From the NCBI RefSeq assembly GCF_000179915.2, contig NC_014963.1, forward strand, positions 5,022,001 through 5,086,000: a stretch of 64,000 bases of DNA, written 5' to 3'. The translations under genes were made by a program, and so were the position numbers. Under the pieces are notes generated by a model. That model searched no databases. It saw nothing but the letters and a program-made list of their open reading frames with translations, and had not been told where the DNA came from. This document shows, piece after piece, positions 43,265 to 58,227 of the stretch. Source of the DNA: Terriglobus saanensis SP1PR4. Lineage in GTDB: Bacteria > Acidobacteriota > Terriglobia > Terriglobales > Acidobacteriaceae. Every line of letters begins with the position of its first letter. The first letter of the stretch is position 1.

Positions 43265-44131
43265 TTAACTTGTGGAACGGGTGTCGAGGCCGAGGTCCAG
43301 GGAGCGGACGCTGTGGGTGAGTGCGCCAACGGAGATGATGTCTACGCCGGTGTGGGCGATGGCGCCGATGGTTTCGAGGCGTACGGTTCCGCTGGCTTCG
43401 ACCAGGGCGCGGCCCGCGATCTGCCTTACACCCTCGCGCATCTGTTCGAGCGTGAAGTTGTCGAGCATGATCGTGTCCACACCTGCGGCGAGGACGGCTT
43501 CAATCTGGTCGGGGCGGTCGACTTCCACTTCAAAGTGTGCGGTGTGCGGGAGGGAAGCCCGTGCTGCGCGCAGGGCTTCCGTGAGATCGCGCCGGCCGTC
43601 GTCGGTCAGTACGGCGAGATGATTGTCCTTCGCCATCACGGCATCGGAGAGCGAGAAACGATGGTTGTGGCCGCCGCCGCAGCGGACGGCGTAGCGTTCG
43701 AAGAGTCGCAGGCCGGGTGTTGTCTTGCGGGTATCGACAACGCGGGCGTGGGTACCGGCGATCTCCGCCACGTAACGGGAGGTCATGGTGGAGATGCCGG
43801 AGAGGCGCTGTACGAAGTTCAGGGCCACTCGTTCTGCCTGCAATACGCCGTGTGCCGGGCCGGTAGCCGTGGCGAGCACGTCTCCGATGGCGAAGGCTTC
43901 CCCGTCTTCGACCAGGAGGTCGGTCTTCGTGGTGGGGTCTGTAAGGGTCATGGCGGCGGCGAAGATCTCTCCACCGCAGAAGACGCCTGCTTCGCGCGCG
44001 ACGAGGTCGGCAGTCATGCGGGCCGATGCGGGAATCAGCGTCTGCGAAGTGAGGTCGCCCCAGGGAGCGTCTTCCAGAAGGGCCATTTTGACGACGCGTT
44101 CGATGCTCTCGCGATCGAGGCCTACTAGCAT
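43265..44131 (-). CDS. nadC: Nicotinate-nucleotide pyrophosphorylase (quinolinate phosphoribosyltransferase)
   Basis: 288 residues, standard length. LLEDAPWGDLTSQTL at the N-terminus, then ERVALNFVQRLSGISTMT, ARVVDTRKTTPGLRLFERYAVRCGGGHNHRF (PRPP/quinolinate site), IMLDNFTLEQM and VEASGTVRLETIGAIAHTGVDIISVGALTHS. It converts quinolinate to nicotinate mononucleotide, third step of de novo NAD synthesis. ATG 44131 overlaps the nadB stop by 7 bases, so the three nad genes are coupled. The frame extends to 44383 inside nadB as a shadow. Confidence 0.95.
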   Translation of the reverse strand: MLVGLDRESIERVVKMALLEDAPWGDLTSQTLIPASARMTADLVAREAGVFCGGEIFAAAMTLTDPTTKTDLLVEDGEAFAIGDVLATATGPAHGVLQAERVALNFVQRLSGISTMTSRYVAEIAGTHARVVDTRKTTPGLRLFERYAVRCGGGHNHRFSLSDAVMAKDNHLAVLTDDGRRDLTEALRAARASLPHTAHFEVEVDRPDQIEAVLAAGVDTIMLDNFTLEQMREGVRQIAGRALVEASGTVRLETIGAIAHTGVDIISVGALTHSVRSLDLGLDTRSTS

Positions 44132-45666
44132 GGGATCGTCACCGGAGAGTGCAGGACGAGTTGTCGCTTGAAGTCTGGCGAAGGAACGGGGAAGTCGTTG
44201 CGGTAGTGCGCGCCACGCGATTCCTGCCGGGCAAGAGCGGCCGTGGTGATGACGCGCGCGAGTGTTAGAAGATTGCCCGTTTCGCGATCTTCCACGCTGG
44301 TGCCTGTGCTCTTCCATCGCTTCAGTTGATTCAAAGCTTCGCGGAGGCCTTCGCTGTCGCGGTAGATTCCCACCTTGTCCCACATCAACTGCTGTAGGTC
44401 GCGGCGTTTTACAGGAGTTGCAGAGGCCGCATCGTCAATCGAGACATGCATTGGGTGAGAGGTGTCGCTCCATACCGGCCAGTTGTTGGCGAGCGTGGTG
44501 TTCACTCCGGAGAGGAGAAGACGCGCTGCGCGTGCAGCGAAGACGAGGCTTTCGAGCAGAGAGTTCGACGCGAGACGGTTCGCTCCGTGCACGCCGGTGC
44601 AGGCGACTTCGCCGATCGCAAAGAGACCACGCACAGAGGTGCGGCCCCAGACGTCGGTGCGCACGCCACCCATCCAGTAGTGCGCTGCGGGGGTGACGGG
44701 GACGGGCTGTTTCGACCAGTCGATGCCGAGGCGGCGGCAGGCGGCGTCGATGTTGGGAAAGCGCTCTGCGAGAAACTCCGCGCCCATGGCCGTTGCGTCC
44801 AGAAGCACGGGTTTGCCGTCCTGCTTCTTCATCTGCTCGGCGATGGCGCGGGCCACAACGTCGCGTGGAGCGAGGTCGGCATTGGGATGGACGTCCTGCA
44901 TGAAGCGTTCGCCGGTGGCGGTGAGGAGGACTGCGCCATCGCCGCGCACGGCTTCGGAGAGAAGGAAGTTGCCGGGGACGGCCATCGCCGTTGGATGGAA
45001 CTGGTAGAACTCGACGTCGGCGACCTCTGCTCCGGCGCGCAGAGCGATGGCGACACCGTCGCCCGTGGCTACAGCCGGGTTGGTCGTGTAAGGGTAGAGT
45101 TGTCCCGCGCCGCCGCTGGCCAGGATCACAGCTTCAGCATCGAGGCGAAGAGACTTGCCGTCCTTGTCCAGAACATCCAGACCGATGACGCGATCCCCGT
45201 GCAGGGCGAGGTCGCAGGCGAAGGTGTGTTCCATCACGGTGACGTTGGCTGCGTGGAGTGCGGTGGCCAGCGCTTTTTCGATGGCGAGGCCGGTGGCGTC
45301 GCCGCCCGCGTGCAGAATGCGTGCATGCGAGTGTGCCGCTTCGAGACCGCGTGCAAGTTCGCCGTCCTTCTGGTCGAAGGCGACGCCGAGAGCGATGAGA
45401 TCGCGCACGCGCGGCGGGCCTTCGTTGCAGAGGGCTTCGACGGCGTTGCGCTGGCTGAGGCCTGCACCGGCCTGCATGGTGTCTTCGACATGGGCTGCGG
45501 CGCTGTCGTCGTCCCACATGGCCGCGGCGATGCCGCCCTGGGCGAAGCGTGTATTGCTGTCGGCGATGTGCGCCTTGGTGACGAGCGTAACTGCGTAGGC
45601 CTTGCTCAATTCGATGGCTGCGATCAGGCCTGCGATGCCGCTTCCGACGATGACGATTTTCTTCAT
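44125..45666 (-). CDS. nadB: L-aspartate oxidase
   Basis: 513 residues. FAD Rossmann motif IVIVGSGIAGLIAAIELSK at the start, TRFAQGGIAAAMW, HSHARILHAGGDATG, and FYQFHPTAMAVPGNFLLSEAVRGDGAVL, then GLFAIGEVACTGVHGANRLASNSLLE. The enzyme oxidises aspartate to iminoaspartate for quinolinate synthesis; FAD flavoprotein, cytoplasmic. Its start overlaps the nadA stop as ATGA. Confidence 0.95.
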   Translation of the reverse strand: MKKIVIVGSGIAGLIAAIELSKAYAVTLVTKAHIADSNTRFAQGGIAAAMWDDDSAAAHVEDTMQAGAGLSQRNAVEALCNEGPPRVRDLIALGVAFDQKDGELARGLEAAHSHARILHAGGDATGLAIEKALATALHAANVTVMEHTFACDLALHGDRVIGLDVLDKDGKSLRLDAEAVILASGGAGQLYPYTTNPAVATGDGVAIALRAGAEVADVEFYQFHPTAMAVPGNFLLSEAVRGDGAVLLTATGERFMQDVHPNADLAPRDVVARAIAEQMKKQDGKPVLLDATAMGAEFLAERFPNIDAACRRLGIDWSKQPVPVTPAAHYWMGGVRTDVWGRTSVRGLFAIGEVACTGVHGANRLASNSLLESLVFAARAARLLLSGVNTTLANNWPVWSDTSHPMHVSIDDAASATPVKRRDLQQLMWDKVGIYRDSEGLREALNQLKRWKSTGTSVEDRETGNLLTLARVITTAALARQESRGAHYRNDFPVPSPDFKRQLVLHSPVTIPC

Positions 45667-46976
45667 GCAGCGCTCGTGGTCGAAGGCTTGGCGATCAACA
45701 TTCTTTCCAGGGCGATGCGGGCGAAGTCGGCAGTCTCTTTCGGCACCTCGATGCGGTTTAGGACTTCGCCGCGTTCGAGACCTTCAAGAACCCAGGCGAT
45801 GTAGCTGGGGTGAATGCGATACATCGTGGAGCAGGGGCAGATGACGGGGTCGAGGCAGAAGATGGTGTGCTCGGGATGATCGTTGGCGAGGCGCTGCACC
45901 AGGTTGATCTCCGTGCCAATGGCGAAGATGGAGCCAGCGGGCGCGGCTTCGATGGTCTTGCGAATGTAGTCGGTGGAACCGGACTCGTCCGCGGCGTCGA
46001 CGACTTCCATCGTGCACTCGGGATGGACGATGACGCGGACCTCGGGATAACGCGCGCGGGCGAAGGCGATCTGCTCCACGCTGAAGCGCTTATGCACGGA
46101 GCAGTAACCGTGCCAGAGGAGGACGCGGGCTTGCTGCAGCGTCTCTGTGGTGTTGCCGCCGAAGGGAAGCTTGGGGTCCCACATCGGCATCTGCTCGAGC
46201 GGAATGCCCATGGCTTTGCCGGTGTTACGGCCGAGATGTTGGTCGGGGAAGAAGAGGACGCGCTGTCCGCGAGCGTAGGCCCAGCCCATGACGACGTTCG
46301 CGTTGGACGAGGTGCAGACGATGCCGCCGTGCTCGCCGCAGAAGGCCTTCAGAGCGGCGGAGGAGTTCATGTAGGTCACGGGGATCACGGGAACGCGGCC
46401 ATCCGCATCGGGCTCGGTTCCGTAGATCTCTTCGAGCTGCTCCCAACAATCCAATACGGAGTCGAGATCAGCCATGTCGGCCATGGAACAACCGGCTGCG
46501 AGGTTGGGGAGAATGACTTTCTGGTTCGGGCCGGAGAGGATGTCGGCGGTCTCGGCCATGAAGTGCACACCGCAGAAGACGATGGCTTCCGCGTTGGGGC
46601 GTGTCTTCACGCCCTGCGCGAGCTGGAAGGAGTCTCCGACGAAATCGGCGTACTTGATGACCTCGTCGCGCTGGTAGAAGTGTCCGAGGACGACGACACG
46701 GTCGCCGAGGGAGGCCTTGGCGGCGCGGATGCGCAGGTCGAGTTCTTCCTTTGAGGCCTGGCGATACTCCTGCGGAATCAGGCCCTGCCGTGGGGAGATA
46801 GCGGGGAGCTTATCGCCGACCGAGGCTCCGGGGCCATAGCTGGGGGCCTGTGCGTCGATGACCCATGGATCGTCTGCCAGTGCCGGATCGCAGACACTGC
46901 CAACATTTGCGTGAGCACCATCACCTGACTGTTTGACGATGCGAATCAGTTGGATCGTCCCGTTTACCGATGCCAC
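45663..46976 (-). CDS. nadA: Quinolinate synthase, [4Fe-4S]
   Basis: 437 residues. GHFYQRDEVIKYADFVGDSFQLA, then FCGVHFMAETADIL (Cys about 135), GIVCTSSNANVVMGWA (Cys about 221), HPECTMEVVDAADESGST and CLDPVICPCSTMYRIHP (Cys 380/382) supply the cluster ligands of NadA. It condenses iminoaspartate with dihydroxyacetone phosphate. The N-terminal 45 residues are an extension beyond the shortest NadA proteins. First gene of nadABC. Confidence 0.95.
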   Translation of the reverse strand: MASVNGTIQLIRIVKQSGDGAHANVGSVCDPALADDPWVIDAQAPSYGPGASVGDKLPAISPRQGLIPQEYRQASKEELDLRIRAAKASLGDRVVVLGHFYQRDEVIKYADFVGDSFQLAQGVKTRPNAEAIVFCGVHFMAETADILSGPNQKVILPNLAAGCSMADMADLDSVLDCWEQLEEIYGTEPDADGRVPVIPVTYMNSSAALKAFCGEHGGIVCTSSNANVVMGWAYARGQRVLFFPDQHLGRNTGKAMGIPLEQMPMWDPKLPFGGNTTETLQQARVLLWHGYCSVHKRFSVEQIAFARARYPEVRVIVHPECTMEVVDAADESGSTDYIRKTIEAAPAGSIFAIGTEINLVQRLANDHPEHTIFCLDPVICPCSTMYRIHPSYIAWVLEGLERGEVLNRIEVPKETADFARIALERMLIAKPSTTSAA

Positions 46977-47132
46977 TTACGTCACCTCTGCCACTTCAGT
47001 GCGGCGCAAAGCTGCTACGCCAAGAACCTATAGGATAACGCCTGCCGAAGCAGGCGCTTGTGGCATTGGATGAGAGGAAGGCGGCTGCCGTCGCATAAGT
47101 AAATCGTTTGCACCAGGTATGAGGCGAACGCC

Positions 47133-47690
47133 TTACTTCGATACGTTGTTGAGTGCGAGGTTGAGTTCCAGCGTGTTCACGCGGGGTTCGCCCAGAAGAC
47201 CGAACTGCCGGGGCGCGATGTGGCTCTGGACGAGGTCTCGTAGCGTGCTCTCAGACAGATGCCGTTCTTTGGCAACGCGCTGTACCTGAAAGAGAGCGGC
47301 GGCGGGGGAGATGTCGGGATCGAGGCCAGAGGCGGACGTGGTGACGAGGTCGACTGGAACCGAGGTGGTAACTCCCTCCGTTGCCACACTTGCCTGTACG
47401 CGGTCGACGAGGGATTTGTTGGTCGGTCCCAGATTGGAACCGGAGGAGGCCGAGGCGTCGTAGCCGGTTCCTGCGGCGGAGGGACGGCTATGGAAATAGC
47501 CGGGGCCGGTGAAGGGCTGGCCTATGAGGTGGGATCCGATAATCTCGCCGTTCTGCGTGATGAGCTGGCCTTCGGCCTTCTGGCGGAAGAAGACGTGCGC
47601 GATGCCGGTGATGAGCAGCGGATAGACCAAGCCGAGCAGGACAGCGGTGACGACGGTATAGAGGCTTGCGGTGAGCAGATGTTTTTTCAT
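47133..47690 (-). CDS. kdpC: Potassium-transporting ATPase subunit C
   Basis: 185 residues. One N-terminal helix (LLTASLYTVVTAVLLGLVYPLLITGI), then GSHLIGQPFTGPGYFHSRPSAAG, SSGSNLGPTNKSL and SGLDPDISPAAALFQVQRVA, all KdpC blocks. It stabilises ATP binding by KdpB. Nine bases separate its start from the kdpB stop. Last gene of the operon. Confidence 0.95.
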   Translation of the reverse strand: MKKHLLTASLYTVVTAVLLGLVYPLLITGIAHVFFRQKAEGQLITQNGEIIGSHLIGQPFTGPGYFHSRPSAAGTGYDASASSGSNLGPTNKSLVDRVQASVATEGVTTSVPVDLVTTSASGLDPDISPAAALFQVQRVAKERHLSESTLRDLVQSHIAPRQFGLLGEPRVNTLELNLALNNVSK

Positions 47691-47699
47691 GGAGACTCC

Positions 47700-49733
47700 T
47701 TATGCCAGGTGAAGCGCGACGATGGCCATGTCGATGAGCTTGATGCCGAGGAAGGGAACGATGACGCCACCGAGACCGTAGACGAGCAGATTGCGGCGCA
47801 GCATGGCTTCGGCGGACATCGGCCGGTAGGCCACGCCGCGCAGGGCGAGCGGGATCAGGCCGACGATCACCAGGGCGTTGAAGATAACAGCCGAGAGGAT
47901 GGCCGATTCGCCGTTGTGCAGGTGCATGATGTTGAGCGCGTTAAGCACGGGGAAGACACCTGCAAACATGGCCGGGATGATGGCGAAGTACTTGGCCACG
48001 TCGTTTGAGATGGAGAAGGTGGTGAGAGCGCCGCGCGTCATGAGGAGCTGTTTGCCGATGGCGACGATCTCGATGAGCTTGGTCGGGTTGCTGTCGAGAT
48101 CGACCATGTTGCCTGCTTCCTTGGCGGCCTGCGTGCCGGAGTTCATGGCGACGCCTACGTCTGCCTGTGCGAGCGCGGGCGCGTCGTTGGTGCCGTCGCC
48201 GGTCATGGCGACGAGCTTGCCTTCGGCCTGTTCGCGCTTGATGAGGTCCATCTTGTCTTTGGGTTTGGCTTCGGCGAGGAAGTCATCCACGCCTGCTTCG
48301 CGCGCGATGGCCGCGGCGGTGAGGGGGTTGTCGCCGGTGATCATGACGGTGCGGATGCCCATGGCGCGCAGTTGCTCGAAGCGCTCCTTCATGCCGCCTT
48401 TGACGACATCTTTCAGATGGATGACGCCGAGGGCGCGGCCGTTCTCCGCGACGACCAGAGGCGTGCCTCCGCTGCGGGCTACCTCTTCCACGGAGCTACG
48501 AACCTGCGCTGGCAGCTCCGATCCGTGTTCGACGAGATAGCGCGCGATGGCGTCGACCGCGCCTTTGCGGATGCTGCGTCCATCGACTTCGATGCCGCTC
48601 ATGCGTGTGGTGGCGGAGAAGGGAACGAACTCGGCTTTCATCTGGCCGAGCTCGCGGGCGCGAAGGTTGTACTTCTCCTTGGCGAGAACGACGATGGAGC
48701 GGCCTTCGGGCGTCTCGTCGGGAAGCGAAGAGAGTTGGGCCGCGTCGGCGAGCTGGTCGGCGCTGACGCCGGGCGCGGGAAGGAACTCCGCGGCCTGGCG
48801 GTTGCCGATGGTGATGGTTCCGGTCTTGTCGAGGAGCAGGGTGTTGACGTCACCAGCAGCCTCCACCGCGCGGCCTGAAGTTGCGAGCACGTTGTGCTGC
48901 ACGAGACGGTCCATGCCCGCGATGCCGATGGCGGAGAGCAGACCGCCGATGGTGGTGGGGATGAGGCAGACGAGCAGCGAGATGAGCACGAAGACTGTCT
49001 GCGGCGCTCCGGAGTACATGGCGAAGGGCTGTAGCGTGACGACGGCGAGAAGAAAGATGATCGTCAGACCGGAGAGCAGGATGTTCAGAGCGATCTCGTT
49101 CGGTGTCTTCTGCCGCTCCGCGCCTTCGACGAGCGCGATCATGCGGTCGATGAAGGTCTCTCCGGGGTTCGAGGTAATGCGAACGGTGATGACATCGGAG
49201 AGGACGCGCGTGCCGCCGGTGACGGCGGAGCGGTCGCCGCCCGCTTCGCGGATGACGGGTGCGGATTCGCCGGTGATGGCGGATTCGTCTACGGAGGCGA
49301 CGCCTTCGATAACCTCGCCGTCGCCGGGAATCATCTGGCCTGCGACGACGCGGACCTTGTCTTCCTTGCGCAGATGAGAGCTGGGGACCTCTTCGATCTC
49401 GCCTGCTTTATTGACGCGGTGCGCGGTGGTCTCGCTTTTGGCGAGACGCAGAGCATCCGCCTGCGCTTTGCCACGGCCTTCGGCCATGGCTTCGGCGAAG
49501 TTGGCGAAGAGCACGGTGAACCAGAGCCACAGCGTGATCTGGAGATCGAAGCGGAAGTGGCCGTGGTGGGTGAAGAGATCGGAGACAAGGAGGCAGGTGG
49601 TAAGTACGCTGCCAACTTCCACCACGAACATGACGGGGTTCTTCATCATGACGCGCGGGTTCAGTTTGCGGAGCGCATCTACGCTGGCACGGCGAACGAT
49701 TTTGGAATCGAAGAGAGAGCGACGTTTGGACAT
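47700..49733 (-). CDS. kdpB: Potassium-transporting P-type ATPase subunit B
   Basis: 677 residues, typical. [25 protein letters not shown] (actuator TGES), [14 protein letters not shown] (phosphorylated Asp), [18 protein letters not shown] and [21 protein letters not shown] are P-type ATPase motifs; the short nucleotide-binding part is typical of KdpB. Hydrolyses ATP to drive potassium import through KdpA. ATG 49733 follows AGGA. An open frame reaches 50975 but only as a shadow of kdpA. Confidence 0.96.
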
Positions 49734-49747
49734 GATCTTTCCTTTGG

Positions 49748-51511
49748 CTAGAACGTGTGGCCGGCGCGCAGCAGCAGGTGTTCCAGCACAGGGCCAAGGC
49801 TGAGTGCGGGGAAGAAAGTGAGTGCACCGACGATCACGATGACGCCTGTGAGCAGCAGCGTGAAGAGCGGCGTGGTGACGGGGAACGTTCCGGCGGAGGC
49901 AGGCGTTATCTTCTTGCCCGCCAGGTTGCCAGCGATGGCAAGCATGGGCACGATCATCATGAAGCGTCCGAAGAACATGGCCACGGCGAGCGAGTAGTTC
50001 CACCAGTGCGTGTTCGCGTTGAGACCGGCGAAGGCGGAACCATTGTTGCCCGTGGCCGAGGTGTAGGCGTAGAGAATCTCGGAGAGGCCGTGCGGACCGC
50101 GATTCGCAAGACTGCCCAGGCCGAGGTTCGGCATGCGCACGGCGACTGCCGCGAAGCCGAGGATCAGCAGGGGAAAGATGAGGAGATAGAGCATCGCCAT
50201 CTGGATGTCGTAAGCTTCGATCTTTTTGCCGAGATACTCCGGTGTGCGACCGACCATCAGGCCCGCGATGAAGACGGCCATAATGACGAAGACGAGCATG
50301 CCGTAGAGGCCCGCGCCCACGCCGCCGAAGACGACTTCGCCAAGGAGGATGTTGACCATCGGCACCATGCCGCCGAGCGGCGTGAAGCTGTCGTGCATGC
50401 CGTTCACGGCGCCGCAGCTTGCGTCCGTGGTGACGGCGGCGAAGAGGGCGGAGTTGGCTATGCCGAAGCGGACTTCCTTGCCTTCCATGTTGCCGCCCGA
50501 TTGCGTGAGCGACGCGTGTTGATCGACGCCGTGCAGCAGAGGGTTCGCCTGCGACTCCGCCCAGTAGCAGGTGGCGGTTCCTGCGAACCAGAGCACCACC
50601 ATCGCGGCGAGGATGGCCCAGCCGTGCTTCGGTGAGCCAACCATCTGGCCGAGCATGACGGTGAGGCCCGCGGGAATCAGGAAGATCGAGAGCATCTGCA
50701 GGAAGTTGGTGAGCGGCGTTGGGTTCTCGAAGGGATGCGCGCTGTTTGCGTTGAAGAAGCCGCCGCCGTTGGTGCCGAGCATCTTGATGGCTTCCTGCGA
50801 AGCGACTGGTCCCTGGGCAATGGTCTGCGTGGTGATGGTGGTGGTCTTGCCGTCTGTGCCGACGGAGTGTTGCGGTTCGACGAGCTTTGCGGTGTCGTAG
50901 GCGCGGAAGTTCTGCACGACTCCCTGCGAGACGAGCGCGAGCGCGAAGACGATGGAGATGGGCAGAAGCACCCACAACGTGCCGCGCGTGAGATCGACCC
51001 AGAAGTTGCCGAGCGTCTTGGCTTCGCGACGCGCGATGCCGCGCACGAAGGCGACGGCGAGCGCAAGACCGACTGCGGCGGACCAGAAGTTATGCGTCGC
51101 GAGACCGACCATCTGCGTGAGATAGCTCATGGTGGATTCAGGCACATAGGACTGCCAGTTGGTGTTGGTCGTGAAGGAGATGGCGGTGTTCAGCGCCAGC
51201 GCGGGTTCTACGCCGGTTAGATGCTGCGGATTAAGCGGCAGAAGGTGCTGCAGGCGTTCGATAGCATACGTGAGCACGAGTGTCGCCGTGCTGAACGCCA
51301 GCATGGCGACGGCGTATTCCGTCCAGCGCATCTCTTCTTCCGGCTTCACGCCGGTCAGGCGATAGAGCAGGCGTTCGCAGGGCGCGAGGAGGGGATCGAG
51401 AAACGTTCTGCGACGTTCGAAGACGCGCGTGAGATAGCTGCCCATTGGCTTTGCCAGTAGAAGGACCGCCGCGATGAATAGAACAATTTGAAGCCAACCG
51501 TTGAGTGACAT
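49748..51511 (-). CDS. kdpA: Potassium-transporting ATPase subunit A
   Basis: 587 residues, ten helices. [24 protein letters not shown] is the first selectivity-filter region; [33 protein letters not shown] and [20 protein letters not shown] are signature loops. The channel-like subunit that binds and conducts K+. Its ATG immediately follows the kdpF stop codon. Confidence 0.96.
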
Positions 51512-51598
51512 TTAGAACTTCTCCGGATGAAGCATGGCGTAGACGAGATAGGCCAGAAGAGCGGCCGCGATAGAGAGAAGAAGCGCAGATTCAAACAC
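51512..51598 (-). CDS. kdpF: KdpF, small membrane subunit of the Kdp ATPase
   Basis: 28 residues translated directly from the DNA: a GTG start, hydrophobic ALLLSIAAALLAYLVYAMLH, ending PEKF, which is the conserved KdpF tail (usually RPEKF). AAAGGAA lies upstream. Stop TAA abuts the kdpA ATG. It is a single-helix stabilising subunit. The 33-residue gene before it overlaps by 8 bases. Confidence 0.85.
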   Translation of the reverse strand: MFESALLLSIAAALLAYLVYAMLHPEKF

Positions 51599-51692
51599 GT
51601 TTGGTTCCTTTCAGGCGATCGCATCCATCGACGTAAAGAACTGCTGTGGCGAAGGCCAGCAGCAGGAAGAGAATGGGCAAGGCATCGGTCAT
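51591..51692 (-). CDS. 33-residue membrane peptide upstream of kdpF
   Basis: Read from the DNA: ATG 51692, MTDALPILFLLLAFATAVLY, then VDGCDRLKGTKRV and TGA. AAGGAG lies seven bases upstream. One hydrophobic helix is followed by GCDRL and a basic tail. Position, ribosome site and overlap with kdpF all support translation. Short peptides ending in a Y--GC-RL pattern next to kdpF are familiar to me from other kdp operons, but their role is unknown. Confidence 0.65.
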   Translation of the reverse strand: MTDALPILFLLLAFATAVLYVDGCDRLKGTKRV

Positions 51693-51749
51693 CTCAAACT
51701 CCTTTTGGCTCTCCGCACGGTGCGCCGTACGGAGAGCCGAAGCAATGCG

Positions 51750-53345
51750 TTAGAACTTCACGAGAATCGCGGCGGTGGCACGGTTCTCGCTGTTGCGCAG
51801 ATCGGGCGACCATCCAGAGACGACGGAGCCTGGTGTACCGGTGTTGCCTCCGGGAGGCGTTACGCCACCGGGGCCACTGAAGTAGGGCACATTGGCGGCG
51901 CGGTGGTTGAACTCAAGACGCCAGGTGATGTACTGGCTTGGCATCCAGTCCGCCGTCACAGAGGCATCCCATGCCTTGAAGGGATCGCCGGGGTTCTGCG
52001 TGAAGTAAGGCGTACCCGAAGCAGCGGTGGCCCCGTTGATTGGCGGCAGAAGCACGAGGTAGCGGCCGGGGTTGTTGATCTTTCCGCCGCCCAGCGTGAG
52101 GGCGTAGCGGTCATGGTCGAACCAGAGGCGGTTATAGGCCATGAAGCCGACGAAGCTCTGCTTGGGTCCGTTCTTGCCGTTGCCGAAGCAGCTGACGCCG
52201 CTGCCGCTTTCGCAGCCAAGGTCGCCTGTGAGACTCATCGCGGCTTTGCTGACGAAAGAGTACGGACGGTCGAGGTACTTGTACTGAATGCTGTCGTCTG
52301 TGTGGTAGCGCGTGCGCTTTCCCTGTCCCAGCGTGTCGCGGCCTACGGCGTACTGGTTGGCCACAAACGACCAGCTTCCGTTGGGGCGATAGAGGATCTG
52401 TCCACCGATGCCGGGGCGGCTGTTGAAGCGGCCATACGACTGCCAGCCGTTCACGAACCAGGGCTCGATCTTCAGCTTCTTCGTGGGGAAGAACTGCACG
52501 CGCACGCCGTTGAAGAACCAGGGTGTGTTCGAGGAAACATACGAAGGCTGATACGACCAGTTATCGAACTGGTAGTACGAGAAGAGGCCGATGTAGGACA
52601 TGAAGATACCGGCGTCCACATTGATGCCGTGCATCTTGTTGAAGTGATATCCGCCGTAGGCTTCGGAGAGATAGCGGTAGGCGTCCGCAAGGTTCCACTG
52701 GCCGCGTGCGGGGCTGGCATCGTTGCGCGGCGTGGTCTGCGAGTAGAGACCGAACTGGGTCATCAGGCGTGCGCGCACGTTGTCGTAGTGGAAGTCGCCG
52801 CCCACGCCGAACTGCGTGACCTGCACTTCATTCGCGCGAAAGACCTCGCTGGATCCGCTGATGGTGTCGTCCTGCGGATGACGGAAGTCGTAGGTGTAGT
52901 TGATGTCCGCGCGGACCTCCGGTGTGAAGAAGGCGGAGTCGAAGGCGGGCTTGATGGTGCGTGGGCTTCCGGTGAGCCAGGTGAAGTCCGCAAAGGTGAA
53001 GGGATCGTTGGAGGCCACAGGGATTGCCGCTGCTGAGGTTGCAGTGACTGCGGTGGCGGCTACGGCTGCGGGAGGAGGCACGCTCCCGTGTGTTTCTACG
53101 GATGTGCTGGTGGAGGCTGCCGTTGGAGCTACGGTTGTCGGCGCTACCGCCGTCGGCGCGGCGGAGGCTGCTGCCTGGCGCGCTTCAATGGCGCGGAGCT
53201 GTTCCGAGAGCTGCTGAATCTGCTGACGGATGGCTTCGATTTCAGTAACGCTGGGAGCCGTGGGCTGCTGCGCCGTTGCACAGATTGGAAGAAGCGTGGA
53301 GGCGAGAAGAAGAGTAAGAAGCGGTTTGGTGCGTGAGACGTTCAT
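51750..53345 (-). CDS. Outer-membrane beta-barrel porin-like protein within the kdp operon
   Basis: 531 residues. Signal peptide (LLTLLLASTLLPICATAQ), coiled coil (about 30-60, EIEAIRQQIQQLSEQLRAIEAR), an Ala/Thr/Pro linker (60-110), then amphipathic strands with aromatic girdles (YTYDFRHPQDD, NEVQVTQFGVGGDFHYDNVRARLMTQFG, YGGYHFNKMHGINVDAG) and a terminal phenylalanine (AILVKF), the barrel-insertion signal. A porin for potassium or solutes is inferred from context. It sits between kdpE (58 bp) and orf33/kdpF (57 bp) on the same strand. Confidence 0.7.
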   Translation of the reverse strand: MNVSRTKPLLTLLLASTLLPICATAQQPTAPSVTEIEAIRQQIQQLSEQLRAIEARQAAASAAPTAVAPTTVAPTAASTSTSVETHGSVPPPAAVAATAVTATSAAAIPVASNDPFTFADFTWLTGSPRTIKPAFDSAFFTPEVRADINYTYDFRHPQDDTISGSSEVFRANEVQVTQFGVGGDFHYDNVRARLMTQFGLYSQTTPRNDASPARGQWNLADAYRYLSEAYGGYHFNKMHGINVDAGIFMSYIGLFSYYQFDNWSYQPSYVSSNTPWFFNGVRVQFFPTKKLKIEPWFVNGWQSYGRFNSRPGIGGQILYRPNGSWSFVANQYAVGRDTLGQGKRTRYHTDDSIQYKYLDRPYSFVSKAAMSLTGDLGCESGSGVSCFGNGKNGPKQSFVGFMAYNRLWFDHDRYALTLGGGKINNPGRYLVLLPPINGATAASGTPYFTQNPGDPFKAWDASVTADWMPSQYITWRLEFNHRAANVPYFSGPGGVTPPGGNTGTPGSVVSGWSPDLRNSENRATAAILVKF

Positions 53346-53403
53346 GTAATGACCCGTAGATCAGTACATCGCCCGCCTCTGTAGGAAGTCCGTAAAGAAG
53401 ATG

Positions 53404-54108
53404 TTAAGAAGTTGTAAGTTCGTCTGTGCCCGATGGTTGAAAGCGATAACCCACCCAGGGCTCACTTACGATGTAACGGGCTGCGTCCGTGCGCTCGATC
53501 TTCTTGCGCAGTTGCGCAATCAGCACGCGCAGATATTCGGGTTGGTCTTCTCCGGCGGGTCCCCAGACGCCGCGCAGAAGGACCTTATGCGTGAGCACGC
53601 GCAACGGATTGCGGGAAAAGAGGAGCAGAAGGTCGAACTCCTTCGGTGTGAGATGCAGGGATTCTCCGGCGACGACGACGGTATGCGCGTCCACATCGAT
53701 GACAAAGTCGCCGACCTCGATGTGAACTTCTCCGGGCTCGGCGGCCTCGATTCGCCGCAGCTGGACGCGGATCCGAGCGAGCAGCTCCGGCATGCTGAAG
53801 GGCTTGGTGAGATAGTCGTCCGCGCCTTCGTCGAGCGCTGTGATCTTCATGGTGTCGGTATCGCGCACGCTTAGGACGATGATGGGCGTCGTCGCCATAC
53901 GACGGACGGCCTGTGTGAGTTCAAGGCCATTCATCTCCGGCATGGCGAGATCCGTGACGATGAGGTCGGGCTGATCCGCCTTGAAACGCTCGAACCCTTC
54001 CAGACCATCCGAGGCAATCGAGACGTCATAGCCACTGCTTTGCAGCGAGGTGCGGAGCATGCGCGTGATCTGCCGCTCGTCATCCACCACCAAAATTCGT
54101 TTTGCCAT
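53404..54108 (-). CDS. kdpE: Response regulator KdpE
   Basis: 234 residues. Receiver domain MAKRILVVDDERQITRMLRTSLQ with phospho-acceptor Asp in LIVTDLAMPEMNG, then SVRDTDTMKITALDEGADDYLTKPF. OmpR-type winged helix: LHLTPKEFDLLLLFSRNPLRVLTHKVLLRGVWG and YLRVLIAQLRKKIE. It should activate kdp under potassium limitation. ATG overlaps the kdpD-N stop by one base. The frame extends to 54519 as shadow. Confidence 0.93.
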   Translation of the reverse strand: MAKRILVVDDERQITRMLRTSLQSSGYDVSIASDGLEGFERFKADQPDLIVTDLAMPEMNGLELTQAVRRMATTPIIVLSVRDTDTMKITALDEGADDYLTKPFSMPELLARIRVQLRRIEAAEPGEVHIEVGDFVIDVDAHTVVVAGESLHLTPKEFDLLLLFSRNPLRVLTHKVLLRGVWGPAGEDQPEYLRVLIAQLRKKIERTDAARYIVSEPWVGYRFQPSGTDELTTS

Positions 54109-55256
54109 TACTTGCGCGCCCCCGCCTGTGTGTCCTGCGTGATGATGTGAAGGTCCACGTGCGGAGCCTCGGACATGAACTTCTGAATGGCGAGATAGTA
54201 AAGGTATTTCTTCAACCCATGCAGTGCCGACCGCCCAAAGATCGCCTGCGTAATGCGATGTTCGGTGACGTACGCCGCCGTAGCGGAGGCGACGCTCTTT
54301 CCGGTAAGGTGCACGATGTTCGCACCGAGGTTCATGGCAAATTGTAGATGCGCATCCAGGGTTTTTCGGCGCTCGGGTTCGTTGTCGCGCTCGTTGGTGA
54401 GATGCAGAACGTAGAGTTCGCCATTCAAGCCTTCGGCCAGGCGCGCACCGCGCGCAATTAGATCGCGTGCCTCGGGGTTCGCGCTGATGCACACCGCTAC
54501 GCGCTCGATCACGGACCACTGCGCGCCGAGCCGCTTGCGCTTTACGTAATCGTTCAGTGTGCGGTCGACGGCGCGGGTCACACGCTGCAGCGCCATCTCG
54601 CGGAGGGCGATCAGATTGCCTCGGCGAAAGAAGTTGGAGAGGGCGCGCTCCACGCGCTCCATCGGATAGATATCGCCGCGCCGCATGCGTGTGGCCAGGG
54701 CTTCGGGCGTGACGTCGTTGATGATGATCTCGTCGGCACGGTCGAGCACCCAGTCCGGCACGGTCTCGCGCACAGTGATGCCCGTGAGCGCCTGCACGCG
54801 CGGCGTGAGGCTCTCCACGTGCTGGATGTTCACGGTGCTGAGGACATCGATGTTATTTTCCAGCAAAAGCAGGACGTCTTCGTAGCGCTTGGCGAAACGG
54901 CTCCCCACCACGTTGGTATGGGCGAGCTCGTCTACCAGCACGACGTGCGGAGCGCGGGCCAGGATGGCATCCACATCCATCTCGTCGAAGAGAGTGCCTT
55001 TGTAGTCGATTTCGCGGCGGGGTACCTGCTCCAGTTTGACGGCCTGCTCCGCGGTGCCGCTGCGACCGTGGGTTTCCACGATGCCTACAACGACGTCTTC
55101 GCCGCGGCTACGGCGGCGATTGCCCTCGCTCAGCATGCTGAAGGTCTTGCCTACACCGGGCGCATAGCCGAGGAAGATTTTGAACCGGCCGCGCTTCTTT
55201 TCCGTCTCCGTGGCAAGCAACCAGTCTTCCGCGGATTTTCTCTTTTCGTCCGACAC
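54108..55256 (-). CDS. kdpD: KdpD N-terminal half only (sensor/Usp domains, no kinase)
   Basis: 382 residues. Residues about 24-230 are the KdpD sensor domain: KIFLGYAPGVGKTFSML (Walker A), VETHGRSGTAEQA, VVLVDELAHTN (Walker B), YEDVLLLLENNIDVLSTVNIQHVESL. Residues about 250-370 form a universal-stress-like domain (VAVCISANPEARDLIARGARLAEGLNGELYVLHL). No membrane segments, HisKA or ATPase follow: the gene stops where full KdpD would enter its membrane domain. GTG 55256. The missing half is the divergent gene at 55271. Confidence 0.9.
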   Translation of the reverse strand: MSDEKRKSAEDWLLATETEKKRGRFKIFLGYAPGVGKTFSMLSEGNRRRSRGEDVVVGIVETHGRSGTAEQAVKLEQVPRREIDYKGTLFDEMDVDAILARAPHVVLVDELAHTNVVGSRFAKRYEDVLLLLENNIDVLSTVNIQHVESLTPRVQALTGITVRETVPDWVLDRADEIIINDVTPEALATRMRRGDIYPMERVERALSNFFRRGNLIALREMALQRVTRAVDRTLNDYVKRKRLGAQWSVIERVAVCISANPEARDLIARGARLAEGLNGELYVLHLTNERDNEPERRKTLDAHLQFAMNLGANIVHLTGKSVASATAAYVTEHRITQAIFGRSALHGLKKYLYYLAIQKFMSEAPHVDLHIITQDTQAGARK

Positions 55257-55270
55257 CGTAAGATACTCCC

Positions 55271-56716
55271 ATGAACTCGCAGCGTGCCGTTGCGATCACT
55301 CGCTGGACGATCACATCTCTGGCTCTGGCCGGAATTGTACTCGTCTATAGCCGGTGGCTCCACGTCAATCCGACCACAGTTGCGCTCACCCTGGTGCTTT
55401 TGATCCTGGTGCTGGCCGCAAAATTTAGCCTGCGCTACGCCGTGGGCGCTTCGATTGTTGCCGCCGGATGCTTTAACTTTTTCTTTCTTCCGCCGGTCGA
55501 CACCTTCACCATCTCCGATCCGCAAAACTGGCTCGCCCTGCTGACCTTCCTGGCGACTGGCGTGATCGGAAGCCGCCTGTCGCAGCGCGCACGCGATGAA
55601 GCGGAAGACGCGCGGGCGCGCCAGCGGGAGATAGAAATTCTTTTCACGCTCAGCCGCGAGCTTCTGCAGGCAGAGAACGTCGCAGCGCTGGTGAATACGC
55701 TGCCTTCCGTGATTGCAGGGGTGTCTTCGGCGGAGTCTGTCGCCCTTTTTCTTCTGCAGGGGGACAGGCTCTATCAGTCGGGCCAGCGTGCGACTTCTAC
55801 CATCGACGCCGTGCATCTGCGCCAGATCGCCCTGACCCTCAACGGTCCGGAGACAGTGCCTGGAGACGAGATTCGCATTCCTCTGCGCAGCGGTGTTCGT
55901 CCGCGCGGCCTGTTGATGCTGCGTGGGGTCACGCTCTCCGAAGGCAGCTTCCAGGCGATGGGAGGCCTCGTCTCCATCGCGCTCGACCGCGTGGAAGCAC
56001 TGGAAAACGTTGCCAAGAGCGAGGCAGCCAAGGAGAGCGAACGGCTGCGCACGCTGTTGCTGGATTCCATCACGCACGAGTTGCGAACGCCGCTCACTTC
56101 GATCAAGGGCGCCGCAACGACGCTTCTCTCGAACGACAACATCAGCGAAGCCGACCGTCTTGAACTGCTGACGATTGTGGATGAGGAGAGCGACCGCCTG
56201 AACCGGCTTGTCTCGCAGGCGGTGGAGATGGCGCAGCTCGAGGCGAACGAGGTGCATATGACCTTCGCCCCCATGAGCATGGAGGAGGCCATCGGCCGCG
56301 CCCGTGAGGCGTGCGCCCATGTGGAGCAGATGCATCCCCTTCAGGTTTCGCTGCCGCCTCTGCCCCCGGTCATGGCGGACATCGAAGTCGTCATCAAAGT
56401 GCTCTGCAACCTGCTCGAAAACGCCGCCAAGTACTCAGCGGAGGGCTCGCCGATCTTTGTCTCTGCGGTGCATGAAGGGGATGAAGTCTTGACCAGCGTC
56501 GCAGATCGCGGCATCGGCATCCCCAGCGACGAGCAACCGCTGATCTTCGATCGCCTCTACCGCGCCCGCTCCCAGGGCGGAACTATTCCCGGAACGGGGA
56601 TGGGGCTGGCAATCAGCCGCGCCATCGTGGAAGCGCACGGTGGAAAGATCACCGTCACCAGCCAGCCGGGGCATGGCTCCGTCTTTACTTTTTCACTGCC
56701 TGTGGTGGAGATTTAG
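55271..56716 (+). CDS. KdpD C-terminal half: DUF4118-GAF histidine kinase
   Basis: 481 residues. Four membrane helices (about 10-100) of the KdpD/DUF4118 type, including AAGCFNFFFLPPVDTFTISDPQNWLALLTFLATGVI, a coiled linker, GAF-like region (about 125-240), HisKA with H269 in SITHELRTPLTSIKG, and an ATPase with NLLENAAKYS, DRGIGIP and GTGMGLAISRAIVEAHGG. Together with the kdpD-N product it reconstitutes a whole KdpD. It is transcribed away from the kdp operon; start codons are 14 bp apart, so promoters must overlap coding DNA. Probably phosphorylates KdpE. Confidence 0.88.
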   Translation: MNSQRAVAITRWTITSLALAGIVLVYSRWLHVNPTTVALTLVLLILVLAAKFSLRYAVGASIVAAGCFNFFFLPPVDTFTISDPQNWLALLTFLATGVIGSRLSQRARDEAEDARARQREIEILFTLSRELLQAENVAALVNTLPSVIAGVSSAESVALFLLQGDRLYQSGQRATSTIDAVHLRQIALTLNGPETVPGDEIRIPLRSGVRPRGLLMLRGVTLSEGSFQAMGGLVSIALDRVEALENVAKSEAAKESERLRTLLLDSITHELRTPLTSIKGAATTLLSNDNISEADRLELLTIVDEESDRLNRLVSQAVEMAQLEANEVHMTFAPMSMEEAIGRAREACAHVEQMHPLQVSLPPLPPVMADIEVVIKVLCNLLENAAKYSAEGSPIFVSAVHEGDEVLTSVADRGIGIPSDEQPLIFDRLYRARSQGGTIPGTGMGLAISRAIVEAHGGKITVTSQPGHGSVFTFSLPVVEI

Positions 56717-56970
56717 AGCGCAAGACGCTTCCTCTGTGTTTGCGTCGTCAGGGCGAAACTCTCGGAAGTCCACGAAGCCGGCAAAGGGCTATCTGGAGAG
56801 TGAGGACGTTTAGGATCATCGTCACTCTAGAAAGGATAAATGTGGGTTGTCGACCAGACAGCCAAGCAAGTATTTAGCCAACAGTAAGCCTTCCGGCTCA
56901 CGGAATGCTGACCGGAGGGAACATAAAGACCATTTGTTTCCATGGCGCTCGGGTGCGATAAGCTTGTGTA

Positions 56971-58227
56971 ATGCACGGGCCGCCTTTAGCTAGAAATTCT
57001 GGAAATATCGTCGATGCTTCGCAAAATCCGCTTCCAGATGGGGAAGCGTCAGCTCCGGGGAGTGTTCTCCTCGATGTCCTGCTGATTGTCACCCAAAAAA
57101 AGGGGAGATTTGTTGCGATTATTGCCGCTTTTACTCTCTTAGGAATTCTCTTTGCTTTTTTGGCGAAGCCAACCTATACGGCGACGGCCTTGATTATGCC
57201 GCCCCAAGCTCCTCAATCATCACTTTCATCCCTAATGGGGCAACTAGGCTCGCTGTCTGCGCTAGGGGGAGGCGCAGGTGGTCTTCTTAAAAATCCGGCA
57301 GATCTGTATATAGGCATACTTCAGAGCAACACCATAGCAGATCGGGCAATCGAGGCTTTCCATTTGCAAGCGCGGTGGCACACCGCGAGCATGTATGAGA
57401 CACGCAAGCGCCTAGATGGTCACATTCAATTTGAGGCAGCAAAGAACGGTTTAATCCAGATAACAGCCAAGGATGACAATCCCAAAAATGCGAGTGAGCT
57501 GGCAAATTTTTTCGTCGACGCCCTTTACCAAATTAACTCGACGTTAGCCATTTCGGAAGCTTCGCAGAGGCGTCTTTTCTTCGAGCAACAGCTAAACAGC
57601 GAGAAGAACACCTTGGAAGCGTCTGAAGAGGAATTAAAGGAAACTCAGCAAAAAACCGGACTCATTTCCGTGAGTGGACAGGCGGAAATGGCGGTCCGAA
57701 CGATTGCTCAAGCTCAAGCCCAAATCGCCAGCAAAGAGATTGAGTTGCAGCGGATACGTGCTTATGACGCGGAGGAGAACCCAGAGGTCATCCGCCTTAA
57801 AGAAGAGATTGCGGCACAGCGTCGCCAATTAACCGTGTTGGAGAATAACCAACAACGCATGGCCCCCGGCGACACGCAAATTGCGGCGAATCAGGTTCCT
57901 GTCGGAAGTCTTGAATACACACGAAAATTGCGAGAGGTGAAATACCACAATACTCTGTTTGAGGTACTTTCGCGCCAATACGAAGCGGCGCGCATCGATG
58001 AAGCCAAATCTGCACCAATAATCCAGGTAGTGGACAGAGCGCTTCCACCGGATCACAAATCGGGTCCACCTCGCCTGCTAATCATGATTGGTTTTACCGT
58101 ATGCGGACTTCTTATAGCTTGCGGCTGGGCTTTTGTAACTTCTTATATTGAACAAGCGCTACGAGCACCTGTGATGGCTTCGAAGTTGAACTGTCTAAAA
58201 GCTCAGCTCAACTGGAATAGAACCTAG
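56971..58227 (+). CDS. Polysaccharide chain-length/export protein (Wzz/GumC type)
   Basis: 418 residues. Wzz N-terminal domain with TM1 (about 45-65, RFVAIIAAFTLLGILFAFLA), a Gly/Ser-rich loop, then long coiled coil (about 200-300, RRLFFEQQLNSEKNTLEASEEEL). TM2 is near the C-terminus (about 370-390), preceded by VDRALPPDHKSGPPR, the conserved proline-rich tail. No tyrosine-kinase domain is attached. Regulates sugar polymer length and export. Codons and lower G+C differ from the kdp region. Confidence 0.8.
   Translation: MHGPPLARNSGNIVDASQNPLPDGEASAPGSVLLDVLLIVTQKKGRFVAIIAAFTLLGILFAFLAKPTYTATALIMPPQAPQSSLSSLMGQLGSLSALGGGAGGLLKNPADLYIGILQSNTIADRAIEAFHLQARWHTASMYETRKRLDGHIQFEAAKNGLIQITAKDDNPKNASELANFFVDALYQINSTLAISEASQRRLFFEQQLNSEKNTLEASEEELKETQQKTGLISVSGQAEMAVRTIAQAQAQIASKEIELQRIRAYDAEENPEVIRLKEEIAAQRRQLTVLENNQQRMAPGDTQIAANQVPVGSLEYTRKLREVKYHNTLFEVLSRQYEAARIDEAKSAPIIQVVDRALPPDHKSGPPRLLIMIGFTVCGLLIACGWAFVTSYIEQALRAPVMASKLNCLKAQLNWNRT

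Follow-up and report, generated by a model that had tools for sequence, protein, structure and literature searches.

The stretch of DNA analysed here, 64,000 nucleotides of the Terriglobus saanensis SP1PR4 genome (hereafter, the window), carries a kdp potassium-pump locus in which the domains of the sensor KdpD lie on two separate proteins, a short KdpD made of the KdpD and Usp domains and a membrane-GAF-histidine kinase, whose genes are transcribed divergently from closely spaced start codons (Table 1). We consider it likely that the locus represents a two-chain control of the Kdp pump, in which a divergent histidine kinase/KdpE pair turns the pump genes on and the short KdpD, as a stand-alone serine kinase, shuts the pump off; the assignment of both enzyme activities draws on work on Escherichia coli and Deinococcus geothermalis. 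At low potassium, kdpFABC would be switched on by the plus-strand kinase and KdpE, acting as a two-component pair whose genes are transcribed divergently. When potassium is plentiful, the KdpD/Usp serine kinase would phosphorylate the serine of the TGES motif of KdpB (S153), and the pump would stop. The serine kinase is probably made together with the pump, because its gene lies between the kinase gene and kdpE and overlaps kdpE. The two proteins would act on different targets, and contact between them would not be required.

The two proteins and their genes

The two open reading frames (ORFs), of 382 aa on the minus strand with a GTG start and of 481 aa on the plus strand with an ATG start, were confirmed at the positions and with the spacing of 14 bases that a first-pass annotation, made from the sequence alone, had given them. 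The sensor/Usp and kinase functions do lie on separate chains that diverge start to start, and the ORFs, domains and orthologues bear out the statement of the same annotation that both halves keep their own motifs and do not derive from a decayed gene. A decayed or frameshifted full-length kdpD was rejected on the same grounds, namely intact ORFs, kept motifs and conserved orthologues. The genome is a single contig of 5.1 Mb (99.99% complete), and a search for a full-length kdpD elsewhere in it, which by the first-pass annotation would have refuted its reading, found none; the sole PF02702 match is the KdpD/Usp gene of the window.

The KdpD domain was found in 95 of the 120 genomes of the family Acidobacteriaceae. 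We fetched 100 loci from these 95 genomes and typed the genomes by the fetched loci; further KdpD copies in some genomes (e.g. G049, G077, G084, G104 and G106) lie outside this set. Judged by identity to the window protein only, 73 loci in 70 genomes were assigned to type I (≥56%) and 27 loci in 27 genomes to type II (≤45%). Many of the family genomes are drafts, and some absences may be gaps. In 69/73 type I loci, from 66 of the 95 KdpD genomes, the kinase gene stands head to head with the KdpD/Usp gene. Because it is conserved in 69 fetched loci, the pair is real and not a product of chance, and the head-to-head layout is ordinary in Acidobacteriaceae. The back-to-back split had been called unusual, a description that these counts do not sustain, and the split has also been published for the phylum (Silberberg et al. 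2024; PMC11018627).

In the 382-aa protein, the KdpD domain PF02702 was matched over 210/210 positions (301.7 bits), followed by a Usp domain that gave a weak Pfam match (20.3 bits against a cut-off of 24) and is recognisable in the predicted structure. The predicted model, with a mean predicted local distance difference test (pLDDT) score of 83.8, matched 2r8r, a structure of the N-terminal part of KdpD, with TMt 0.93 and 0.95, and its C-terminal part was closest to 7ji4 (E 1.8e-8, TMt 0.84), the complex of cyclic di-AMP (c-di-AMP) with a KdpD Usp domain that we take to be from Staphylococcus aureus. Sequence identity between the protein and the N-terminal part of E. coli KdpD is 39%. The protein matched NF038185, 'KdpD-like non-kinase potassium sensor', over positions 2–372 of 373 with 369 bits, short of the curated cut-off of 550, and full-length KdpD (NF007793/PRK10490), for which a single chain scoring >1123 bits is expected, was matched by the two chains separately with 316.8 and 202.1 bits.

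The KdpD domain of E. coli has been reported to be an atypical serine kinase (ASK) that phosphorylates S162 of KdpB and thereby inhibits the pump; this activity requires W39/R190, the Walker A motif and D109/E110, and the purified N-terminal domain alone suffices for the phosphorylation of KdpB in vitro (PMC11018627). Among the ASK residues named in that report (G30, G34, G36, K37, T38, W39, D109, E110 and R190), the short KdpD of the window keeps G30 and GVGKT, which make up a Walker A motif of the form G-X5-GKT, the Walker B residues D109 and E110, and R190, whose aromatic partner at position 39 is F; there is no histidine kinase on the chain. These residues were counted in 71 of the 73 type I rows (two rows of <331 aa were left out): G34, G36, K37, T38, D109, E110 and R190 are kept in 71/71 and G30 in 70/71, and the W39 equivalent is Y or F in 67/71. 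KdpB of the window keeps TGES, the ASK target motif in E. coli, and the short KdpD is predicted to phosphorylate its serine S153.

The 481-aa protein contains DUF4118, HisKA and HATPase_c, all above the Pfam cut-offs. Its GAF domain gave no Pfam match and appears in the predicted model (mean pLDDT 76) as a GAF-like alpha/beta block at approximately residues 137–218, between four N-terminal helices and the DHp and CA parts of the kinase; the Foldseek matches of the model are histidine kinases. The protein is 30% identical to the C-terminal half of E. coli KdpD and matched NF007793 at KdpD positions 403–882, below the cut-off. H269 and D412 are present in 65/65 and N384 in 64/65 of the divergent kinases compared. 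The protein thus has the make-up of a KdpD-type histidine kinase chain: a DUF4118 membrane part, a GAF-like domain (in the model only), a phospho-accepting H, and N and G boxes. We infer that it is the histidine kinase for KdpE. The same genome encodes a second DUF4118 histidine kinase (L103:2-1848) with the H-box HAVKTPLT and an adjoining response regulator; this protein was rejected as the kinase half, as it falls on a long branch outside the clade and has its own regulator alongside.

The kinase/kdpE pair and the apparently movable gene of the predicted serine kinase

Homologues of the kinase at E≤1e-60 occur in 97 of the 120 family genomes, compared with 70 for the type I KdpD/Usp gene. 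We fetched 32 loci (20 + 12) because their kinase match, the best match only with second, weaker ones outside the set, did not lie beside a type I KdpD/Usp gene. In 25 of them (18/20 and 7/12), the kinase gene faces kdpE with no KdpD/Usp gene in between, at a distance of 29–553 bp between match ends, and a kdpA match follows further on in 19 of the 25. A tree was built from 88 kinases, 65 with a KdpD/Usp neighbour (from the 69 divergent family kinases; the same 65 were used for the residue counts above), 20 without one (from the first 20 of the 32 loci) and 3 outgroup rows. The neighbour state changes nine times on this tree, at least eight of them on starred branches. A clade of eight kinases without a neighbour forms one of the three branches of the unresolved base, so that either state may be ancestral. 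In three genomes, G027, G030 and G071, the type I gene (L009, L042 and L065) lies apart from the kinase, and a kinase/kdpE pair (L244, L245 and L243) is found elsewhere.

The divergent kinase/kdpE pair looks like the conserved core of the system. The serine-kinase gene looks like a movable and removable extra, because kinase/kdpE pairs exist without it, the neighbour state has changed repeatedly and type I genes occur apart from the kinase. The first-pass annotation had concluded that the locus encodes two proteins that must meet; the main evidence against this is the kinase/kdpE pairs that have no KdpD/Usp gene, and the activity of the purified E. coli domain by itself also argues against it. 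Contact between the two proteins where both are present is possible, but it would be non-obligatory.

c-di-AMP as a possible input to the predicted serine kinase

For a short KdpD from D. geothermalis, stimulation was reported with c-di-AMP but not with K+ (PMC11018627). A search of the window genome for a diadenylate cyclase (PF02457) gave no match; the same search was positive in 11 of 14 control genomes. PF02457 is present in 65 of the 120 family genomes and in 193 of 247 phylum genomes, and all four genomes seen from the genus were negative. If absence is taken to mean not being among the 65 family genomes listed with PF02457, then 50 of the 95 family KdpD genomes have no recognised diadenylate cyclase. 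Type I genomes fall into 45/70 with and 25/70 without a cyclase, and all of the 25 genomes with type II only are without a recognised one. In addition, no c-di-AMP riboswitch was matched by Rfam at the gathering threshold in positions 44000–58000 of the window. Control by c-di-AMP therefore cannot be assumed, as neither the window genome nor these 50 genomes contain a recognised diadenylate cyclase.

Residue 285 of the Usp domain aligns with Y271 of S. aureus KdpD, a residue that matters for c-di-AMP binding (PMC4686210). It is H in the window, Y in 46/46 of the type I rows with a cyclase and H in 19/25 of those without (the same 71 rows as for the ASK residues). This correlation is suggestive only: the pattern amounts to approximately two changes on the tree and draws no support from independent pairs, the tyrosine persists in three genomes that lost the cyclase recently (G022, G073 and G092), and type II proteins also have a tyrosine without a cyclase (L007 and L012). 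We therefore rejected residue 285 as independent evidence of a link to the cyclase, because of the independent pairs and the tyrosine kept in G022, G073 and G092.

Alternative explanations and the origin of the two chains

It is also conceivable, if distinctly unlikely, that the two proteins form a bipartite KdpD, binding each other and acting as one sensor in trans. Such a sensor would fit the pairing of the genes in 69/73 type I loci and in all four genus genomes seen, and the two proteins jointly span E. coli KdpD from end to end; moreover, with no recognised diadenylate cyclase, the serine kinase may need another input, such as the kinase chain. What speaks against it is that the kinase/kdpE pair stands without a KdpD/Usp neighbour in 25 of the 32 loci picked for separation, that the neighbour state has switched at least eight times, and that G027, G030 and G071 hold the type I gene and the kinase/kdpE pair in different places. 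For the cyclase-less lineages only, we see some chance, albeit a rather small one, that a new input now drives the serine kinase, for example binding of the neighbouring membrane-GAF kinase, which would rebuild a tandem serine/histidine kinase in trans from the two opposed genes with a promoter in common. Control of the serine kinase by c-di-AMP through the Usp domain, as in D. geothermalis KdpD, appears highly improbable: the closeness of the Usp model to 7ji4 and the presence of a cyclase in 45/70 type I genomes are in its favour, but PF02457 is missing from the window genome and from the four genus genomes seen, in a search that recognised 11 of the 14 controls, and residue 285 is H in the window and Y in all 46 cyclase rows, though with only about two changes on the tree.

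Several points weigh against two-chain control itself. The N-terminal domain of E. coli KdpD is reportedly needed for signalling (PMC2714519). In each of the four genomes seen from the genus of the window (L002, L003, L004, and L247 in G339), the two genes lie side by side, an arrangement that would also suit a partnership of the two proteins. In seven of the 32 loci, no kinase facing kdpE was seen: contig ends truncate L251, L252 and L260; the gap in L231 measures 1030 bp; L234 and L257 lack a kdpE match over about 5 kb; and in L258 a broken kinase shares its strand with kdpE. KdpE, the short KdpD and the kinase of the window all score under the curated NCBIfam cut-offs for E. coli-type proteins. 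Because TGES is common to P-type ATPases, its presence in KdpB is weak evidence for an ASK target. Finally, the regulator of Deinococcus radiodurans is said to act unphosphorylated, and a role of the kinase was not demonstrated there (Dani et al. 2017; PMC5716572).

The first-pass annotation had described the two genes as a split and rearranged sensor. To place the two chains, quick trees, with support from the SH-like approximate likelihood ratio test (SH-aLRT) only, were built from 94 rows for the KdpD/Usp part and from 62 rows for the kinase part (including 18 of 75 divergent kinases; L111, which is short, and L167, in which no kinase was found, were left out). The divergent KdpD/Usp proteins form one clade with SH-aLRT 100, which includes L009 and L042, and the divergent kinases form one clade with SH-aLRT 99; no fused KdpD row lies inside either. 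The main clade of full-length KdpD excludes the divergent proteins, with a support of 99 in the KdpD/Usp part and of 96 and 98 in the kinase part. Fused Actinomycetota rows and L121 fall outside the main fused clade in the KdpD/Usp tree, the Actinomycetota being joined to the side of the divergent clade by a branch with a support of 22. In other families of Acidobacteriota, L121 is fused and L130 and L134 carry KdpD/Usp, kinase and kdpE genes in that order; their kinases branch together near the divergent kinase clade, which makes these three loci useful for deciding between fusion and fission.

Fission, in which a full-length kdpD would have broken in two with one piece inverted, receives no support from these trees, because both proteins fall outside the canonical clade of full-length KdpD (the deep branches are weak), and to that extent the description as a split sensor is not supported. 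We regard fission as quite improbable. Among 40 chosen loci from other families of Acidobacteriota, 19 do carry a full-length KdpD, and the in-order pairs of L130 and L134 and the fused L121 branch near the kinase clade; an old fission would also fit the position of the fused Actinomycetota rows, with its support of 22. These points are opposed by the single clade formed by each chain, with no fused row inside, and by the exclusion of both chains from the main fused clade. The tree topologies agree with a published scenario in which the chains were separate at first and fusion followed (PMC11018627).

Comparison with known Kdp systems

A split KdpD is already known and is common in Acidobacteriaceae. 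Separate KdpD/Usp and transmembrane (TM)/GAF/DHpCA histidine kinase chains were reported to be most common in Acidobacteriota and Chloroflexota, and separate-chain combinations with a histidine kinase to go with KdpE (PMC11018627). The system described there has the identical domain make-up on two chains as that of the window. The part of that report available to us mentions neither the head-to-head layout nor a serine-kinase gene that comes and goes beside a constant kinase/kdpE pair, and species with a short KdpD but no cyclase are only implied ('majority'). The literature searched, partly at the level of titles and abstracts and with supplementary files outside the search, contained no description of the head-to-head layout.

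In D. radiodurans, kdpD-N lies apart from the operon of the sensor kinase and the regulator, the latter being required for kdp induction, and this operon faces kdpBAC-kdpD-N across a gap of 38 bp that was proposed to hold a response-regulator site (PMC5716572). This system resembles the window in having a kdpD-N that is separate from the C-half sensor kinase and in its divergent transcription. It differs in that kinase and regulator form one operon there, whereas in the window the kinase gene is on its own, and the row of kdpE and the pump genes is headed by the short kdpD. E. coli KdpD (NC_000913, L226) shares the ASK and kinase motifs with the two chains in addition to the sequence identity given above, but it is one chain of 894 aa, with kdpF, A, B, C, D and E on one strand. 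The Usp domain of S. aureus KdpD (PMC4686210) shares the Usp fold and the first serine of the SXS motif (S258 in the window); in contrast to it, the window protein has H285 at Y271, N260 at the second serine and LYVLH for FTAXY, and no diadenylate cyclase is recognised in the window genome. What differs from the known systems is the order kinase/short kdpD–kdpE–pump, the mobile short kdpD and the missing cyclase.

In these loci, the 2024 view that KdpD is a tandem serine/histidine kinase meets a natural experiment, because each of the two activities has a gene of its own, the gene for the serine kinase is mobile and about half of the family KdpD genomes are without a recognised c-di-AMP enzyme. 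Two questions become testable: which signal acts on a stand-alone KdpD serine kinase, and which of the two forms, separate or fused, is the older.

Occurrence of the layout within and beyond the family

The start-to-start gap in the 69 divergent loci is 5–134 bp (median, 42; ≤60 bp in 61/69), as measured from homologous starts; a first-start method was dropped as noisy owing to upstream in-frame starts. Of the four type I exceptions, L100 starts at a contig end and is uninformative; the other three, L009, L042 and L065, are genuine exceptions, in which ≥1 kb of DNA precedes the gene and shows no kinase match. Beyond the family, the layout is present in 0/40 chosen loci of other families of the phylum, which comprise 19 fused genes, 3 followed by a kinase match in the same orientation and 18 without a nearby kinase match. 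Among 80 of at least 592 relatives in a scan of named GTDB genomes, it was found in six, all Acidobacteriota, some on the same contigs as the family set (L147, L148 and L151 correspond to L065, L050 and L086).

Two other arrangements of KdpD/Usp genes were seen. In L012 (3118-6083) and L047 (1957-5095), a type II KdpD/Usp gene directly follows a co-directional gene for a 609–624 aa protein with a weak kinase match, with a one-base overlap between the two genes in L012; no kdpA or kdpB match was found within about 4 kb of either. Tandem pairs of KdpD/Usp genes are present in L041, L133, L135, L137, L167, L168 and L248, the weaker copy being approximately 32–34% identical to the window protein.

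Other features of the kdp locus

The minus strand reads, from the KdpD/Usp gene onwards, kdpE, a BBP2 porin gene, a 33-aa ORF, kdpF, kdpA, kdpB, kdpC and nadA, and the KdpD/Usp stop codon shares one base with the kdpE start codon (TAATG). From this order and spacing, we infer co-transcription of the short kdpD, kdpE and the pump genes. The name kdpE is based on the place of the gene in the locus and on its best NCBIfam regulator match, PRK10529 (NF007820) KdpE, at 186.5 bits (curated cut-off, 325); MtrA is nearly equal at 185.1 bits.

Table 1. Positions of the kdp genes and associated features in the window, with the basis of each assignment
Feature	Position	Strand	Basis
Short KdpD (KdpD + Usp domains), predicted stand-alone ASK for KdpB	54108..55256	-	PF02702, NF038185, kept motifs, model
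Membrane-GAF-histidine kinase, homologue of KdpD C-terminal half	55271..56716	+	DUF4118, HisKA, HATPase_c, NF007793, model
Start-to-start gap, 14 bp	55257..55270	.	Sequence
kdpE response regulator	53404..54108	-	Best NCBIfam match, TAATG overlap, position in kdp row
BBP2-type beta-barrel porin, between kdpE and kdpF	51750..53345	-	PF07642 151.2 bits
33-aa ORF, one-helix membrane peptide, overlaps kdpF	51591..51692	-	Similar ORFs in many relatives
kdpF, 28 aa, GTG start	51512..51598	-	PF09604 35.4 bits, TIGR02115 30.8 bits, both above cut-off
kdpA	49748..51511	-	TIGR00680 756.7 bits
kdpB, TGES at residues 150-153, predicted target serine S153	47700..49721	-	TIGR01497 1095 bits
kdpC	47133..47690	-	PRK00315 221.7 bits

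The BBP2 porin gene lies inside the kdp row, and many relatives likewise have matches to it close to kdp; the porin may provide an outer-membrane route for potassium that is coupled to the pump. Short ORFs resembling the 33-aa ORF, with a Y..C[DE]-type ending (a pattern composed after examples had been inspected), are present 5' of kdpA in 46 of 55 family loci, compared with 13 of 2750 shuffled upstream stretches. Beyond the family, they were seen in 1 of 4 phylum loci and 5 of 26 GTDB loci, those five all being from Acidobacteriota. Pfam and NCBIfam searches with the 33-aa ORF gave no match, and its product is possibly an unrecognised small Kdp protein.

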